DNA from: Limnohabitans lacus
GTDB taxonomy: Bacteria; Pseudomonadota; Gammaproteobacteria; Burkholderiales; Burkholderiaceae_C
Reading direction: 5' to 3'
Assembly (NCBI RefSeq): GCF_030053395.1
Contig: NZ_JASGBH010000001.1
Location: 372,001-436,000, forward strand
Length of the DNA: 64,000 bases
Part shown: piece by piece, positions 1-64,000 of the stretch
Layout of the letters: each line of letters starts with the position of its first letter
How positions within the stretch are numbered: position 1 is the first letter of the stretch
The notes under the pieces: model-generated
The model's database searches: none
Seen by the model: the letters and a program-made list of their open reading frames with translations, nothing else
Told to the model about the DNA's origin: nothing
Position numbers and translations under genes: made by a program

Positions 1-339
1 ATGGACCTGGGCGCGGCGCGTTGCCGCTATGGCAAGTTCCTGCGCGTGGCCGTCAATGGCCGTGCGCCCGACATTGCGCGTTTGGTCAGAGAGTTCCCGG
101 CGCAACGCGAGCAAACCGAGCAGGGCGATCTGGTCCGCGGCTTGCCGGTGCGCCTGAAGCTCGAGCGTCGCGACGGCGAAGTCGGCGCCCGTGCCGAACT
201 GGCGCTGGGCGAGCAAGCCCGTTTCTTCCCGTCCGATGCGGCACTGGCCAGCTGGATGGCGCAGGCCGATCAGGGGCAAGCGGTCATTGTGTACGAGGAC
301 AACAACCCCATACTGACGCTGCGGACAGTGTCGCAGTAA
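1..339 (+). CDS. C-terminal part of an unidentified protein (partial)
   Basis: An open frame of 112 codons runs from the first base of the window to a TAA at 337. The ATG at base 1 is probably internal, because no upstream sequence or ribosome binding site is available. I do not recognise the family. The visible part is arginine- and glutamate-rich early on, followed by a more hydrophobic stretch ending near VIVYEDNNPILTL, and has no signal peptide or membrane segment. It is convergent with tolA, 72 bases apart, with two hairpins between them. High GC at third codon positions supports real coding. The function is unknown. Confidence 0.55.
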   Translation: MDLGAARCRYGKFLRVAVNGRAPDIARLVREFPAQREQTEQGDLVRGLPVRLKLERRDGEVGARAELALGEQARFFPSDAALASWMAQADQGQAVIVYEDNNPILTLRTVSQ

Positions 340-365
340 GGCTTTTGGGAATCCTCTACCGAGGG

Positions 366-401
366 GCCCTGAGGCATCAGGGCGTGGGGCTTTCGAAGCC
401 C
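366..401. terminator. Paired hairpins between convergent genes
   Basis: Two stem-loops lie back to back: GCCCTGA/TCAGGGC with loop GGCA (366-383) and GGGCTT/AAGCCC with a 3-base loop (387-401). They sit between the partial gene on the plus strand and the end of tolA on the minus strand. Neither is followed by a clear T-run, so intrinsic termination is only suggested. The segment GCGTGGGGCTTTC recurs at about 2588-2600 beside another GC-rich hairpin. Confidence 0.4.
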
Positions 402-411
402 TGTGCGTGGG

Positions 412-1371
412 TCAGTCCTGCGGCCTGAAACCCAACACAATGACGGACGGCACGCGGCCATCGGTGTCTTTGGGGAACACTTCAGTCTTGTCGATCGCGC
501 GCAGCACGGCGTCGTCCCAGGCGCGGTTGCCGCTGGACTGCACGATGCGTCGGCTGAGGATGGTGCCGTCGGGGCTGACTTTGACTTCGACTTCGGCCCG
601 TGGATTGCCCACCACATCGCCGGGGTAGGTGATGTTGGGTTTGATGCGGCCCACCAAGCGACCCGCATAACTGGACGAGGGGCCCGCTGACTTGAGGGCG
701 CTGCCCGTGGCGTTTTCGCCGCCCGAAGCCCCGGCCAGGCCTTGCATGCGTTTGAGGTTTTCACTGCGCAGTGCGTCCATGCGGGCAGCATCGGCTTTGG
801 CCTCTGCCGCTTTTTTGGCTTCTGCTTTTTCGGCGGCCTTTTTCTTTTCAAGCTCTTTGTCGGCCTTTTCTTTGGCCAGCTTGTCCTTCTCGGCTTTTTC
901 CTTGGCGGCTTTTTCTTCTTTCTCGCGCTCTTTGCGCTTGAGCTCGGCCTTGTCTTTTTCGGCTCTCTCTTTTTCGAGCTTCTCGGCTTCTTTTTTCTTC
1001 TCGAGCTGCTTTTTCTTTTCCAGCGCAATTTGCGCATCGCGCTGCTCGATCCGTGGATCGGGGGCAGGGGGCGCGGGCTTGGCTTTGGGTTCTGGCTTGG
1101 GCTCGGGTTTTGGAGGTTCAGGTTCGGGCTGAGGTGCAGGTGGCGGCTCTTGCAGGCGGGGCGCAGCGGCCTGCGGTGTGGCGGACCATAACTCGGCTTC
1201 GGCCTGCACGGTCTGAGGCTGGGTGCGCCACTGGGTGGCCAGCGTCAACGCCAAGAACAACACCGCATGCGCCACGATGGCGATCAGCAAGGAGCCTTGC
1301 CGTCCCTCGGGTGCGGGCGGCGCAAACTCCAGATGCGGTGCGGGGCGTGGACTCACAGCCGAATTCCTCAT
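412..1371 (-). CDS. tolA: TolA, cell envelope integrity protein
   Basis: TolA links the TolQR proton-driven motor in the inner membrane to TolB/Pal at the outer membrane and helps outer-membrane constriction during division. The 319-residue protein has the expected three parts. There is one N-terminal membrane anchor (about residues 28-45), a long Pro- then Lys/Glu/Ala-rich helical arm (about 70-215), and a C-terminal globular TonB/TolA-like domain (about 230-319, with the segment GRIKPNITYPGD). I chose the ATG at 1371 (MRNSAVS), 7 bases after the tolR stop, because upstream codons overlap tolR. It is the last gene of the minus-strand operon. The usual next genes, tolB and pal, do not follow; a convergent gene does. 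Confidence 0.93.
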   Translation of the reverse strand: MRNSAVSPRPAPHLEFAPPAPEGRQGSLLIAIVAHAVLFLALTLATQWRTQPQTVQAEAELWSATPQAAAPRLQEPPPAPQPEPEPPKPEPKPEPKAKPAPPAPDPRIEQRDAQIALEKKKQLEKKKEAEKLEKERAEKDKAELKRKEREKEEKAAKEKAEKDKLAKEKADKELEKKKAAEKAEAKKAAEAKADAARMDALRSENLKRMQGLAGASGGENATGSALKSAGPSSSYAGRLVGRIKPNITYPGDVVGNPRAEVEVKVSPDGTILSRRIVQSSGNRAWDDAVLRAIDKTEVFPKDTDGRVPSVIVLGFRPQD

Positions 1372-1378
1372 GCGGTGC

Positions 1379-1798
1379 TCAGGGCGCCAATTGCACCGAC
1401 AAGCCCACGCGGGCAACACCTGCGCGTTGCAGGCTGTCCATGACCTTGACCACGGTTTCGTATTTCACGGTGCGGTCGGCGCTGATGACCACGGCGGTGT
1501 TGTCGCTCGGGCCGATGGCGGTTTTCACGCTGGCCGCCACATTGGCCAGACTGGCCGTGATGGTCTTGCCCTCGATGACCAACTCCAGCTGTTCGTCTTT
1601 TTGGATCACGACTTGGATGACCTTGTCGGGTTGTTTGGCGGCTTTGCCCACGCTGGGCAAGTCCACCATGCTGGGCGTGATCATGGGGGCGGTGACCATG
1701 AAGATGATCAGCAGCACCAACATCACGTCGATGAAGGGCACCATGTTGATTTCAGCGATGGTGCGGCGACCGCGACCCCGGGATGAAACGGCGGGCAT
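1379..1798 (-). CDS. tolR: TolR, ExbD/TolR-family motor subunit
   Basis: TolR is the small inner-membrane partner of TolQ that couples proton flow to TolA movement. The protein has 139 residues, a short basic cytoplasmic N-terminus (RGRGRR), and one membrane helix starting with EINMVPFIDVMLVLLIIFMV. Asp24 in that helix matches the proton-path aspartate of the family. A periplasmic ExbD/TolR domain follows (about 60-139). The start at 1798 is preceded by GAAGGAAGC, a good ribosome binding site; the frame is open further upstream but that part overlaps tolQ. It lies 10 bases after tolQ and 7 before tolA, so the three are translated from one message. Confidence 0.95.
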   Translation of the reverse strand: MPAVSSRGRGRRTIAEINMVPFIDVMLVLLIIFMVTAPMITPSMVDLPSVGKAAKQPDKVIQVVIQKDEQLELVIEGKTITASLANVAASVKTAIGPSDNTAVVISADRTVKYETVVKVMDSLQRAGVARVGLSVQLAP

Positions 1799-1808
1799 GC
1801 TGCTTCCT

Positions 1809-2513
1809 TCAGTGGCCAGAAGCCGAGTTGCTGCCACCGGCCGAGCCCAGGCTGCGCTGCAGGATGTTGGAGAACTCTTCGATGAACGTTTCCATCTTGA
1901 TGGCGATGCGGTCCACGTCGTGCGAGAAACGGTTGTAAGCCAGCACAGCTGGAATGGCCGCAAACAGGCCAATGGCGGTGGCCACCAAGGCTTCGGCAAT
2001 GCCAGGGGCCACGGTGGCCAGCGTCACTTGCTGCAGGCTGGCCAAGCCGGTGAAGGCGTGCATGATGCCCCACACCGTGCCGAACAAGCCCACATAGGGC
2101 GAGATCGAGCCGACCGAAGCGAGGAAGGCCAACTGGGCTTCGGCCACATCCATCTCACGCTGGAAACTGGCGCGCATGGCGCGGCGTGCGCCGTCGAGCA
2201 AGGTGCCGGCATCGCTGATGCGGCGCTCGCGCAGTTTTTGGTATTCGCGCATGCCGCTGGCAAAAATGCGCTCCATGGGGCCCGACATCTTGGCGTTCTG
2301 CGTGGCGGCGTTGAACAACTCGTTCAGGCTGGTGCCCGACCAGAACACGCGCTCAAATTCTTCGTTGAGGTTCTTGATGCGTTTGATCGCCGAGAGCTTG
2401 CGCACAATGGCCGCCCAGCTGGTGACCGAGATGGCCAGCAAAATGCCGACCACCAGTTGCACCACGAAGCTGGCGTGCAGCAACAAGGAAACGATGGACA
2501 TGTCTTGGTTCAT
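1809..2513 (-). CDS. tolQ: TolQ, MotA/TolQ/ExbB proton channel family
   Basis: TolQ forms the proton-conducting ring of the Tol motor with TolR. The 234-residue protein has three membrane helices: about residues 9-35, 128-155 (within LAFLASVGSISPYVGLFGTV) and 170-193. A large cytoplasmic loop rich in charged residues separates the first two, as expected for MotA/TolQ/ExbB proteins. The start at 2513 (MNQDMSIVS) has GGGAGA upstream; a second ATG four codons later is also possible. It follows ybgC after an 85-base gap that contains a GC-rich hairpin element, so TolQRA expression could be partly uncoupled from the upstream genes. Confidence 0.95.
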   Translation of the reverse strand: MNQDMSIVSLLLHASFVVQLVVGILLAISVTSWAAIVRKLSAIKRIKNLNEEFERVFWSGTSLNELFNAATQNAKMSGPMERIFASGMREYQKLRERRISDAGTLLDGARRAMRASFQREMDVAEAQLAFLASVGSISPYVGLFGTVWGIMHAFTGLASLQQVTLATVAPGIAEALVATAIGLFAAIPAVLAYNRFSHDVDRIAIKMETFIEEFSNILQRSLGSAGGSNSASGH

Positions 2514-2529
2514 TGGAGGTCTCCCGATG

Positions 2530-2600
2530 GGCCGCCCCAAGGGCGACCTGTGCCCCCTCGGGGGGCAGCGATTACACAAAGTGATGAGCGTGGGGCTTTC
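2530..2600. repeat. GC-rich double-hairpin intergenic element
   Basis: Between ybgC and tolQ are two adjacent stem-loops: CGCCC/GGGCG with loop CAA (2533-2545), and TGCCCCC/GGGGGCA with loop TCG (2551-2567). They are followed by a segment ending GCGTGGGGCTTTC that also occurs at 384-394 near tolA. From memory, CCCCCTCGGGGGG-type hairpins are scattered between genes in Comamonadaceae chromosomes. This looks like one copy of such a dispersed, REP-like element. Whether it affects mRNA processing or termination cannot be told from the sequence. Confidence 0.5.
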
Positions 2601-3012
2601 ATTTCAAAGCTTCCAGAACGGTGGCCGGAATGCGGCCCGGTTTCAAAGTTTGGCTGTCCACCCAGCCGATGCGAATGGTGCCTTCGGCCAGCAAACGGTC
2701 GGTTTGGCCGGGGCTGTGCAGGTAAGCGCGTTGGGCAATGGTCAGGCTGACCCGACCGGCCTCTTGCAGCTCGGCGGTCACCCGCAAAGTATCGTCCAAG
2801 CGGGCTGGGGAATGGTACTTGACAGCGGTTTCGCTCACCACGAACATGCCGCCCGATGCGTCGCGCAACACCTGCTGGCCAAAACCCAGGCTGCGCAGCC
2901 ATTCGGTGCGGGCGCGTTCAAAGAACTTCAGGTAGTTGGCATAGAACACGATGCCACCGGCGTCGGTGTCTTCCCAATAAATGCGGATGGGGAATTCAAA
3001 AGGCGTGTTCAT
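2599..3012 (-). CDS. ybgC: YbgC, tol-pal-associated acyl-CoA thioesterase
   Basis: This is a hotdog-fold thioesterase of the 4-hydroxybenzoyl-CoA thioesterase family that commonly heads tol-pal operons and hydrolyses short acyl-CoA or acyl-ACP thioesters. The 137-residue protein opens with IRIYWEDTDAGGIVFYANY. Asp17 in the EDTDxGG motif is the family's catalytic aspartate. The start at 3012 overlaps the preceding aminotransferase stop as ATGA, indicating translational coupling. It lies directly upstream of tolQ, as in many proteobacteria. The link to membrane phospholipid synthesis is known for the family and not visible here. Confidence 0.92.
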   Translation of the reverse strand: MNTPFEFPIRIYWEDTDAGGIVFYANYLKFFERARTEWLRSLGFGQQVLRDASGGMFVVSETAVKYHSPARLDDTLRVTAELQEAGRVSLTIAQRAYLHSPGQTDRLLAEGTIRIGWVDSQTLKPGRIPATVLEALK

Positions 3013-60921: not shown

Positions 60922-62631
60922 ATGAATTCAAAAATTGCCGGCCATCTGCTCGTTGAATGCCTCCTGGCCCAAGGTGTGACCCATGCTTTCGGTGTGCCCG
61001 GTGAGAGTTACCTCGCTGTTCTTGACGGTTTCCATCTGCACCGCGACCAGATCCGATTTGTGATCTGCCGCCAAGAAGGGGGAGCGGCCTACATGGCCGA
61101 AGCACAAGGCAAGCTCACCGGCCGGCCCGGCGTTTGCTTTGTGACCCGGGGACCAGGCGCCACCAACGCCTCGATTGGCGTGCACACGGCTTTTCAGGAC
61201 TCCACGCCCATGGTCTTGTTTGTGGGCGATGTGGCCAGTGACACGCGTGACCGTGAAGCTTTTCAAGAGATGGACTACACCCATTTCTTTGGGCCATCGA
61301 CCAAGGGCATGGCCAAGCGTGTGGAGCGCGTGGATGACCCAGAACGTTTGCCCGAGTATGTGGCCCGTGCTTTTGCCACCGCCATGAACGGCCGACCAGG
61401 CCCTGTGGTGCTGGTCCTGCCCGAAGACATGCTCACGCAAACCATCGTCCATGCGCAGCCCTTGCCCCGCGTGGAGCCTGTGCAGGCCTGGAGTGATCCG
61501 GGTGCATTGCGCAGCTTGCGCGATTTGCTCTTGCAGGCCACCAAGCCATTGGTGATCTGCGGTGGCGGGGGCTGGACTGTGCAGTCGGCCCAAGCCTTGG
61601 AGCGGTTCGCAGAAAACTGGCAATTGCCGGTGGCCAACGCGTTTCGATTCCAAGACACCTTTGACAACCACCATCCCCAGTACGCGGGTGATGTGGGCAT
61701 CGGCATCAACCCCGCATTGGCTGCGCTGGTGCGTGACTCGGATTTGATTGTGGCCATCGGTCCGCGTTTGGGAGAAATGACCACCGGCGGATACACACTG
61801 CTCAAAGCCCCGAAAACATCACAAAAGCTGGTCCACATCCACGGCAGCGCTGAAGAGTTGAACCGGGTCTACCAAGCCGATCTGGCCATTCTTTCGACCA
61901 TGAACGCGGCAGCCCGAAGCCTGGAAGTGCTGACAGCGCCGCCAACGCTTCCATGGGCAAACTGGACCGCAGCGGCCAATGCGGCTTACCTCGATAACTT
62001 GAGGCCGCAAACCCTGCCAGGGGACATCGACATGCCGGCCATCGTGGCGACTTTGAAGAAGCATCTGCCCGCCGACGCGGTCTTGACCAATGGCGCAGGC
62101 AACTTCGCCAGCTGGATGCACCGTTTTTTCAAGCACCACGGACTTGTCAAGGGGCTCAAGACACAGTTGGCCCCTACCGTAGGGGCCATGGGCTATGGTG
62201 TGCCGGCTGGCATTGCGGCTAATTTGCTCACCGGTCGCTTGGCCTTCACCATTGCAGGCGATGGCGACTTTTTGATGAACGGTCAAGAATTGGCCACGGC
62301 TGTCCAGCACGGTGGCAAGAGCATCATCTTGTTGCTCAACAATGGCATGTACGGCACGATCCGCATGCACCAAGAGCGCTAATACCCCACTCATGTCACC
62401 GGCTCACAACTGAGCAACCCTGATTTTGTGATGCTGGCCAAGGCCTATGGCTACGCTGCCACGCGCATTCACAATACACAAGAGTTTGAGGCGGCTCTGC
62501 TGGCCGCTTTGCAATGCGAGCAGGGCACTTTGATTGAAGTGATGCTGGACCCCGAAGTGATCACCACCCGAGGCACCTTAAGCGCCATCACCCAATCGGC
62601 CTTGGCCAAGCAAAAGACCGGAAACAGCTGA
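60922..62631 (+). pseudogene. ThDP-dependent acetolactate synthase-like enzyme, interrupted by a stop codon
   Basis: The frame encodes a thiamine-diphosphate enzyme of the acetolactate synthase/benzoylformate decarboxylase family. The N-terminal pyrimidine domain has VICRQEGGAAYMAEA with the catalytic Glu52, a central domain follows, and the pyrophosphate domain has GDGDFLMNGQEL...LLLNN. After MHQER a TAA at 62380-62382 stops it at 486 residues. The same frame then continues without shift (YPTHVTGSQLSNPDF) for 82 codons to a TGA at 62629, completing the usual C-terminus. One base change, such as GAA to TAA, explains this. The lost part completes the ThDP-binding domain, so the product is probably inactive. 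A sequencing error or suppression is possible. Confidence 0.85.
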
Positions 62632-62645
62632 TCGCCAACAGGCAA

Positions 62646-62672
62646 CAAAAAACCCGCCGAAGCGGGTTTTTT
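62646..62672. terminator. Bidirectional terminator
   Basis: ACCCGC and GCGGGT pair around loop CGAA, with A-runs before and T-runs after, extending the pairing. It lies between the ThDP gene on the plus strand and the SWIB gene on the minus strand and can serve both. Confidence 0.85.
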
Positions 62673-62688
62673 GTGGGCAGTCACCGAA

Positions 62689-63090
62689 TCACTTCAGGTG
62701 CTTGCCGATCAAGCCAGCCATTTCAAACATGGTCACTTGAGCCTTGCCGAACACAGCCTTGAGTTTGTCGTCGGCGTTGATCGCACGGCGATTGGTGGCA
62801 TCTTGCAAGTTGTGTTTCTTGATGTAAACCCACATCTTGCTCACGACTTCGGTGCGTGGCAGGGGAGTGGCGCCCACCACGGCAGCCAAGGCGGCGCTGG
62901 GGGTCAGAGCTTTCATGAACGCAGCGTTGGGGGTGCGCTTTTTAGCTGGAGCTGCTTTTTTAGCAGGGGCTTTGGCCGCTACTTTTTTTGCAGGTGCTGC
63001 AGCTTTTTTAGCTGGAGCGGCTTTCTTGGCCGGTGCTGCTTTTTTAGCGGGAGCAGCTTTTTTGGCCGGGGTTTTTTTCGCAGTTGCCAT
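62689..63090 (-). CDS. Histone H1-like tail fused to a SWIB/MDM2 domain
   Basis: The 133-residue protein has a Lys/Ala/Pro tail of about 52 residues built from repeats of the type PAKKAA, like bacterial histone H1-like proteins. It is followed by a SWIB/MDM2 domain (about residues 56-133, LTPSAALAAVVGATPLPRTE, SKMWVYIKKHNLQD, INADDKLKAVFG, MFEMAGLIGKHL). It is likely a nucleoid-associated protein; in eukaryotes SWIB domains belong to chromatin remodellers, and chlamydiae fuse them to topoisomerase or keep them alone. The start at 63090 has AAAGGAAC upstream; the longer frame to 63183 lacks a site. It is divergent from rraA. Confidence 0.9.
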   Translation of the reverse strand: MATAKKTPAKKAAPAKKAAPAKKAAPAKKAAAPAKKVAAKAPAKKAAPAKKRTPNAAFMKALTPSAALAAVVGATPLPRTEVVSKMWVYIKKHNLQDATNRRAINADDKLKAVFGKAQVTMFEMAGLIGKHLK

Positions 63091-63323
63091 GGTTAAGTTC
63101 CTTTGATCGGAAGTTGGTTCGCCGCTGAGAAACAATGCGTTTTCAGCTGAATGCATGCTACTGGAGAAAAGGGCAGTTTCCAAGAGGAAAAATCAGTTTT
63201 TGCTAGGGGTTGTTGCGTATTTGTGAGGCCTCATGAGCATTTTTATGGCTTTTGCCCTGTCGTGGTGCGTATGGCCTGCGTAAGAGGCGTGTTTTCCACT
63301 CGCTCATTTTTAAGGAAACGCGC
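63091..63323. other. Divergent SWIB/rraA intergenic region
   Basis: These 233 bases hold the promoters of both genes. A 10-base palindrome TGAGGCCTCA (63224-63233) overlaps a second one, CTCATGAG (63231-63238), about 90 bases before rraA. They could be an operator but match no site I know. No clear -10/-35 pair is called. Confidence 0.4.
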
Positions 63324-63842
63324 ATGAGCTCTCTGCCCCATTTGGATTTTTCGACCTGTGACTTGTGTGATGAGTACAAAGCCGATGAAAGCGGCACTTT
63401 TCGATACGTGCCCACCGTTTTCCAAAACTACGGTGCCCGCGAGAAGTTTGCAGGCCCTGTTTTGACCATCAAGTGCTGCGAAGACAACAGCCACGTCAAA
63501 CAAGCGGTGGAGTCCGAAGGCCATGGCCGTGTGTTGGTGGTCGATGGTGGTGCGTCCATGCGCAAGGCGCTCTTGGGCGGCAACTTGGCTGCAGCGGCAC
63601 AGCGCAATGGCTGGGCAGGCGTTGTGATTGACGGTTGCGCGCGCGATGCTGCTGAGTTGGCGGTTTTGGACTTGGGCATTCGCGCCTTGGCCTTGAACCC
63701 CATGCCCACGCAACGCGCATTACAAGGTCAAACCGGATTGCCTGTTTTCATTCAGGGTGTTCGGGTCCAAACGGGCGATTGGCTCTATGCAGACGCCGAT
63801 GGCATGGTCATCAGCAGCCAAGCCTTGCACCGAGTTTCATGA
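63324..63842 (+). CDS. rraA: RraA family protein (RNase E inhibitor / HMG-CHA aldolase fold)
   Basis: RraA binds RNase E and dampens RNA decay in E. coli; the same fold includes 4-hydroxy-4-methyl-2-oxoglutarate/4-carboxy-4-hydroxy-2-oxoadipate aldolases. The 172-residue protein has LDFSTCDLCDEYKADESGTF, GRVLVVDGGASMRKALLGGN and VIDGCARDAAELAVLDLGI. The Arg-Asp pair in GCARDAAEL is the metal/substrate signature of the aldolases and is changed in E. coli RraA (VRQVDD). Either role is possible. The ATG at 63324 has TAAGGAAACGCGC upstream. Confidence 0.92.
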   Translation: MSSLPHLDFSTCDLCDEYKADESGTFRYVPTVFQNYGAREKFAGPVLTIKCCEDNSHVKQAVESEGHGRVLVVDGGASMRKALLGGNLAAAAQRNGWAGVVIDGCARDAAELAVLDLGIRALALNPMPTQRALQGQTGLPVFIQGVRVQTGDWLYADADGMVISSQALHRVS

Positions 63843-64000
63843 TGCGCACTCATGTTTTCATAATTTGAAATATTGATGTGTTGCAGTGCATCAAATTTTC
63901 TCAATATGGGAAATGACGTTTTGTATTGAGAAAAATATTTCGTAAGGCATTGATTTTAAACAAATAAAAATAAGTCTTGTATAAGACATAAGAATGAAAA
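63843..64000. promoter_or_regulatory. AT-rich intergenic end with inverted repeats
   Basis: The last 158 bases are far richer in A+T than the rest of the window and hold no gene. They contain TTGATG/CATCAA (63873-63894), a perfect 11-base inverted repeat TTTTCTCAATA/TATTGAGAAAA (63896-63934, 17-base spacer), and a near-palindrome GTCTTGTATAAGAC (63974-63987). The first could be a weak rraA terminator. The others look like operator or promoter elements for a gene beyond the window. Confidence 0.5.

Follow-up and report, generated by a model that had tools for sequence, protein, structure and literature searches.

The window analysed here, a 64 000-nucleotide stretch of Limnohabitans lacus DNA (contig NZ_JASGBH010000001.1, positions 372,001–436,000), encodes near one end a 133-residue protein in which a Lys/Ala/Pro tail precedes a SWIB/MDM2 domain. 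The gene was identified from the list of open reading frames and by profile match. Its parts and neighbours, numbered from the first letter of the window, are as follows.

62689–63090, minus strand: SWIB gene, coding sequence for 133 aa (Lys/Ala/Pro tail plus SWIB domain)
62695–62910, minus strand: SWIB/MDM2 domain, residues 61–132
62911–62937, minus strand: linker R-T-P-N-A-A-F-M-K, residues 52–60
62935–63090, minus strand: N-terminal tail, residues 1–52
62998–63069, minus strand: 18/36 bp repeat in the coding DNA of the tail
63098–63104, minus strand: Shine–Dalgarno-like AAAGGAA, seven bases before the ATG of the SWIB gene
62645–62674, no strand: perfect 13 bp hairpin with A/T ends
60922–62631, plus strand: gene for a TPP-dependent enzyme, convergent with the SWIB gene (PRK08199, 702 bits over the first 486 aa)
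63324–63842, plus strand: RraA-family gene (family match), divergent from the SWIB gene

The upstream AAAGGAA speaks for the start of the SWIB gene, as does the recurrence of that start across the genus. With a pattern that required an MA-x start, the protein was found in 51 of 52 genus sources (L182 was missed), and all 51 rows begin with MATAK and carry AGGA in the preceding 20 bases; L062/L171 and L063/L190 are probably the same contigs, which leaves about 49 independent rows. This rules out a mis-started gene, and a chance low-complexity frame is excluded by the strong Pfam match and by purifying selection on the gene.

None of 200 shuffles folds as well as the 62645–62674 hairpin on either strand. 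Being symmetrical and placed between two convergent genes, the hairpin is not the property of the SWIB gene alone; it is probably a two-way terminator common to the SWIB gene and the TPP-enzyme gene. Across the genus, a terminator-like hairpin follows within 80 nt of the stop codon in 49 of the 51 rows, compared with 28 of 1020 random stretches from the same loci. The gene is thus free-standing and followed by a terminator, as the preliminary description had it, with the addition that the terminator here faces a convergent neighbour. Scans of positions 62000–64000 returned no promoter (mean of 0.8 in shuffles) and six terminator sites (mean of 3.4 in shuffles); the 62645–62674 hairpin was not among the latter, probably because its A/T ends were counted as stem.

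The TPP-enzyme gene is broken by an in-frame TAA (62380–62382), at which 64 of 67 alignments (some contigs being counted twice) have a codon for an acidic residue, the other three being copies of the same locus. The TAA reflects either a nonsense mutation or a fault in the assembly. No conserved operon partner of the SWIB gene was found, the largest neighbour clusters reaching 18 of 77 named loci (ORFs in all frames, some of which may be antisense shadows).

The assignment of the C-terminal part to the SWIB/MDM2 family is borne out by PF02201 (E = 3.1e-27, 94.6 bits against a cut-off of 25) and by the predicted fold. In an AlphaFold2 model built on a 54-sequence alignment, block means of pLDDT lie between 90 and 94 from residue 61 on, and the C-terminal part is predicted to adopt a SWIB fold (a model, not a solved structure), which goes against the refuting case of a different fold named in the preliminary description. 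With this model as the query, the best 50 rows of both Foldseek and VIA-align are SWIB, SWI/SNF or RSC subunit, MDM2 and MDMX chains. Foldseek gives the SWIB/MDM2 domain 1v31 (E = 1.5e-6, TMt = 0.75), and VIA-align the BAF subunit chain 9rmc_P (Z = 13.1, r.m.s.d. of 1.5 over 77 residues). The best relative in the PDB by sequence is yeast UAF30 (7z0o), followed by plant and animal SWIB domains; 7z0o does not appear in the best 50 rows of either structural search, and an open-access literature search on UAF30 found no paper. Proteins, not DNA, are the best-known ligands of the SWIB/MDM2 fold, and the MDM2 matches in the fold searches hold peptides and inhibitors.

Purifying selection on the SWIB part is strong: dN/dS has a median of 0.044 and a maximum of 0.10 in 49 comparisons of the window gene with genus rows. 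From the linker onward, 50 of the 51 genus rows have the same length (79 aa) and are 84–100% identical to the window protein. The linker is mostly kept whether the tail is long or short: Phe58 is invariant in the 54 sequences and Arg52, Pro54, Asn55, Ala56, Ala57, Met59 and Lys60 are each conserved in at least 90% of them, with exceptions seen among distant rows.

The tail consists of 17 Lys, 23 Ala, seven Pro and one Arg, with no Asp or Glu, and is predicted to be disordered (pLDDT block means of 47–60 over residues 1–50). Composition and low pLDDT thus give a Lys/Ala/Pro-rich, acid-poor, disordered tail at the N-terminus, joined to a C-terminal SWIB domain as had been described. Its 47 Lys, Ala and Pro residues in a 52-residue stretch compare with a best value of 33 among the 253 other stop-to-stop frames of at least 100 aa in the window. 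The resemblance to eukaryotic histone H1 is a low-complexity likeness rather than kinship, and it carries no information on descent. The repetition noted in the protein is also present in the DNA, at periods of 18 bp (3.9 copies, 75% matches) and 36 bp (2.0 copies, 88% matches), and the first repeat units differ by synonymous changes. A search for the motif PAKKA mostly matched unrelated words.

The variation in tail length that the preliminary description expected between strains is seen here between species. The genus has 35 versions of the tail, with lengths of 40–74 aa (51 rows, two of them probably repeated contigs). In a survey of 80 loci of at least 92 relatives, varied tails occur in Limnohabitans, Acidovorax, Variovorax, Rhodoferax, Polaromonas, Hydrogenophaga, Roseateles, Janthinobacterium and Collimonas, and short tails of 13–25 aa in Comamonas, Bordetella and Achromobacter. 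A set of 124 free-standing SWIB proteins (the remainder of 134 after omission of L142–L153 and of sequences lacking the linker pattern, with starts chosen by pattern) has tails of 7–100 aa. Acidic residues are absent from 113 of these tails, net charge rises with length (r = 0.88) and three quarters carry a net charge of +12 or more. In 23 of the 124 the tail has 25 residues or fewer, in some cases with just two to four lysines. A long H1-like tail is therefore no hallmark of the family, whose general function cannot be condensation by the tail; the conserved function probably resides in the SWIB part. The tail is a variable charge carrier on a well kept domain, and a minority of lineages are nearly without it.

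The preliminary description named eukaryotic chromatin remodellers and chlamydiae as the best-known settings of the domain; within its own lineage the protein is commonplace. SWIB matches occur in all 60 sampled genomes of the genus (two or more matches in 48), in 73 of 200 of the order and in 41 of 397 of the phylum; 14 well known control genomes gave none. Contamination or a solitary recent import is ruled out by the presence of SWIB in 60 of 60 genus genomes and of the TPP neighbour in 34 of 36 genus loci. The presence of SWIB in Proteobacteria is not new, since it had been counted in 11% of them in 2019 (PMC6426960), a share similar to the 41 of 397 in our phylum sample; SWIB was called rare in prokaryotes except Chlamydia in 2025 (PMC12445093). 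A `SWIB/MDM2 domain protein' of Collimonas is listed in an omics table (PMC12542777). Searching the open literature by title and the start of the abstract (most subscription journals lie outside it), we found no study of a proteobacterial SWIB protein.

The second SWIB domain of the host genome forms the C-terminal end of a topoisomerase III, where it follows a Lys/Ala-rich stretch. This gene, and a further basic protein gene of the same genome, are located as follows.

G000:C12:284222-287149 (L159:5723-8650), minus strand: topoisomerase III, 975 aa from the chosen start, ending in a Lys/Ala-rich stretch and a SWIB domain (PRK14724, 1960 bits)
G000:C24:49382-49903 (L163:1168-1689), minus strand: 173 aa Lys/Ala/Pro protein without SWIB (NF038053, 71.6 bits in one search and 88.8 in another, cut-off 80)

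Residues 5–132 of the window protein match the end of PRK14724 (NCBIfam NF011313; positions 862–987/988) with 117.6 bits. The cut-off of that family is 1088, and the window protein, which has no topoisomerase part, falls outside it. In the genus, order and phylum samples, SWIB in open frames of about 1000 aa is confined to the host's own family; the longest SWIB frame outside it has 354 aa (order sample). The 17 fused loci gave 13 rows after identical domains and those shorter than 65 aa were dropped (L001, L030 and L131 were omitted), and in a midpoint-rooted tree of 74 columns, with bootstrap not settled, these 13 form one fork (97/91) within a set of 55 rows (98/91) that come mainly from the host's family; the 100% bootstrap figure at the fused fork was obtained against 12 distant rows only. 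This fits a single copying of the Lys-rich-plus-SWIB module onto topoisomerase III. The donor and direction are unsure, because the row nearest to the fused fork is L135, a long-branched Bacteriovoracaceae (Bdellovibrionota) sequence (99/72), because Hydrogenophaga rows, also of the Comamonadaceae, fall outside the 55-row set, and because of the 74 columns and midpoint root. The topoisomerase III gene adjoins two genes read as a putative two-partner secretion pair.

With the 173 aa protein, the genome encodes an H1-like protein that is separate from the SWIB protein; its gene adjoins one read as a putative ribonucleotide reductase beta. NF038053 (Burkholderiales histone H1-like DNA-binding protein) shares the Lys/Ala/Pro repeat composition of the window protein, which differs by its SWIB domain. 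Matches to NF038053 at E up to 0.001 occur in 87 of 200 order genomes, 17 of them over the cut-off, and some of the weak ones are the tails of free-standing SWIB proteins. Membership of the window protein in NF038053 or HC2 (PF07382) is ruled out, neither giving a match at E up to 1.

The SWIB part has a codon adaptation of 0.795 and the tail one of 0.60, against 0.69–0.84 for 12 ribosomal and EF-Tu reference frames recognized by eye in the same genome and a median of 0.59 (95th percentile of 0.76) for 48 window frames, which include spurious ones and the SWIB gene's own longer frame. Topoisomerase III is not expected to be abundant. Since it also scores 0.766, codon adaptation does not set the SWIB gene apart and is weak evidence for the abundance proposed earlier. 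The window frames 270–1037 (minus strand), which starts very rich in Lys, Arg and Ser, and 1053–2750 (plus strand) are long with a codon adaptation of 0.36, and are possibly shadows of another gene.

The domain, the type of tail and the topoisomerase fusion are already in public family libraries, and an H1 motif with SWIB has been described in plants. The closest described architecture, likened by description, is that of plant plastid SWIB-4 (Melonek 2012), which according to a review (PMC4154389) binds DNA, compacts nucleoids and complements E. coli lacking H-NS. SWIB-4 is, like the window protein, small and basic with SWIB beside a histone H1 motif; unlike it, SWIB-4 is an organelle-targeted plant protein. 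Chlamydial Wcw_0377/CT460 is likewise a small SWIB protein in a genome with a SWIB-ended topoisomerase, but it is described as consisting of the SWIB domain alone (PMC6426960), and the topoisomerase is I, whereas here it is III. Wcw_0377 of Waddlia gave 1920 ChIP peaks over the genome, by direct or indirect binding, and the chlamydial free-standing SWIB is also found in the host nucleus (PMC6426960). C. trachomatis TopA complemented about tenfold better under induction than its SWIB-less form; the latter still complements E. coli, less well (PMC12445093), so that SWIB is an accessory part in chlamydial TopA.

We regard the window protein as probably, though by no means assuredly, a small protein associated with the chromosome, in which the tail would bind by charge and the SWIB part would dock, a module paralleled in topoisomerase III. 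The disordered polycationic tail would bind DNA by charge, without sequence preference, and its length would set the strength of binding. The folded SWIB domain would do the specific work by docking onto a protein partner or amphipathic peptide, possibly through an MDM2-type groove as the predicted fold would suggest, and so would place the tail on the chromosome or bridge DNA to the partner. Because topoisomerase III ends in a comparable module (SWIB after a Lys/Ala-rich stretch), the control of DNA topology may share that partner or site. DNA binding, partner docking, compaction and the link to topoisomerase III are all steps that we infer. The earlier proposal of a nucleoid protein remains the best reading by analogy with SWIB-4, Wcw_0377 and topoisomerase III, but an H1-like tail is no proof of packaging by itself, as Lys/Ala/Pro tails are also known on granule proteins.

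Those proteins, AlgP and PhaF of Pseudomonas, suggest by analogy that the tail may hold polyphosphate or PHA granules to the chromosome while SWIB binds a granule protein. Both have Lys/Ala/Pro repeat tails of the kind likened to H1: AlgP, whose tail is of the KPAA kind, is located on polyphosphate granules, the spacing of which requires its C-terminus, and the comparable tail of PhaF has been proposed to tether PHA granules (PMC9239181). AlgP, however, differs from the window protein in having another N-terminal domain, its tail at the C-terminus and a granule role (PMC9239181). A tether also sits poorly with the SWIB domain on a topoisomerase of the same genome and with its retention in short-tailed relatives, and we consider it improbable. 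Neighbours were compared as clusters, so that a granule gene may still lie close by. An association with RNA or ribosomes fares similarly against the topoisomerase fusion. Polycations bind RNA as well as DNA, and the divergent neighbour here is of the RraA family, which takes its name from an RNase E regulator, but RraA lies near the SWIB gene in just seven of 36 genus loci, and the cluster represented by the frame read as RraA-like reaches 18 of 77 named loci, so that most loci examined lack it; this explanation seems to us quite improbable.

A further reading gives the SWIB domain the entire function, as an adaptor for topoisomerase, RNA polymerase or some other DNA enzyme, and leaves the tail as a drifting charge tag of weak non-specific affinity. 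It agrees with the near-constant SWIB domain and RTPNAAFMK linker beside a tail that changes in length and falls to 7–25 aa in 23 of 124 proteins. The acid-free composition of 113 of these tails and the net charge of three quarters of them nevertheless point to selection on charge, and we judge this reading rather unlikely. A wider form of the chromosome-associated reading would make the two SWIB proteins a two-part chromatin system of the Comamonadaceae, with Lys-rich-plus-SWIB serving both as an architectural protein and as a targeting end of topoisomerase III, a common partner for the two, and a free-standing/topoisomerase pair that arose twice; this is tentative, and we hold it to be unlikely but worth keeping in mind.

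What is added here to the known families is where SWIB sits: each of the 60 genus genomes sampled has it, it carries a Lys-rich tail, and it also ends a topoisomerase of a second kind. The natural range of tails from 7 to 100 aa on a well conserved domain is a ready series for asking what an H1-like tail adds, and the lineage provides a non-chlamydial system for finding the binding partners of a bacterial SWIB domain and the reason why topoisomerases carry it. If the two-part reading were true, DNA packaging and strand passage would take place at the same sites, and the pairing would have arisen with topoisomerase I in the Chlamydiae and with topoisomerase III here.
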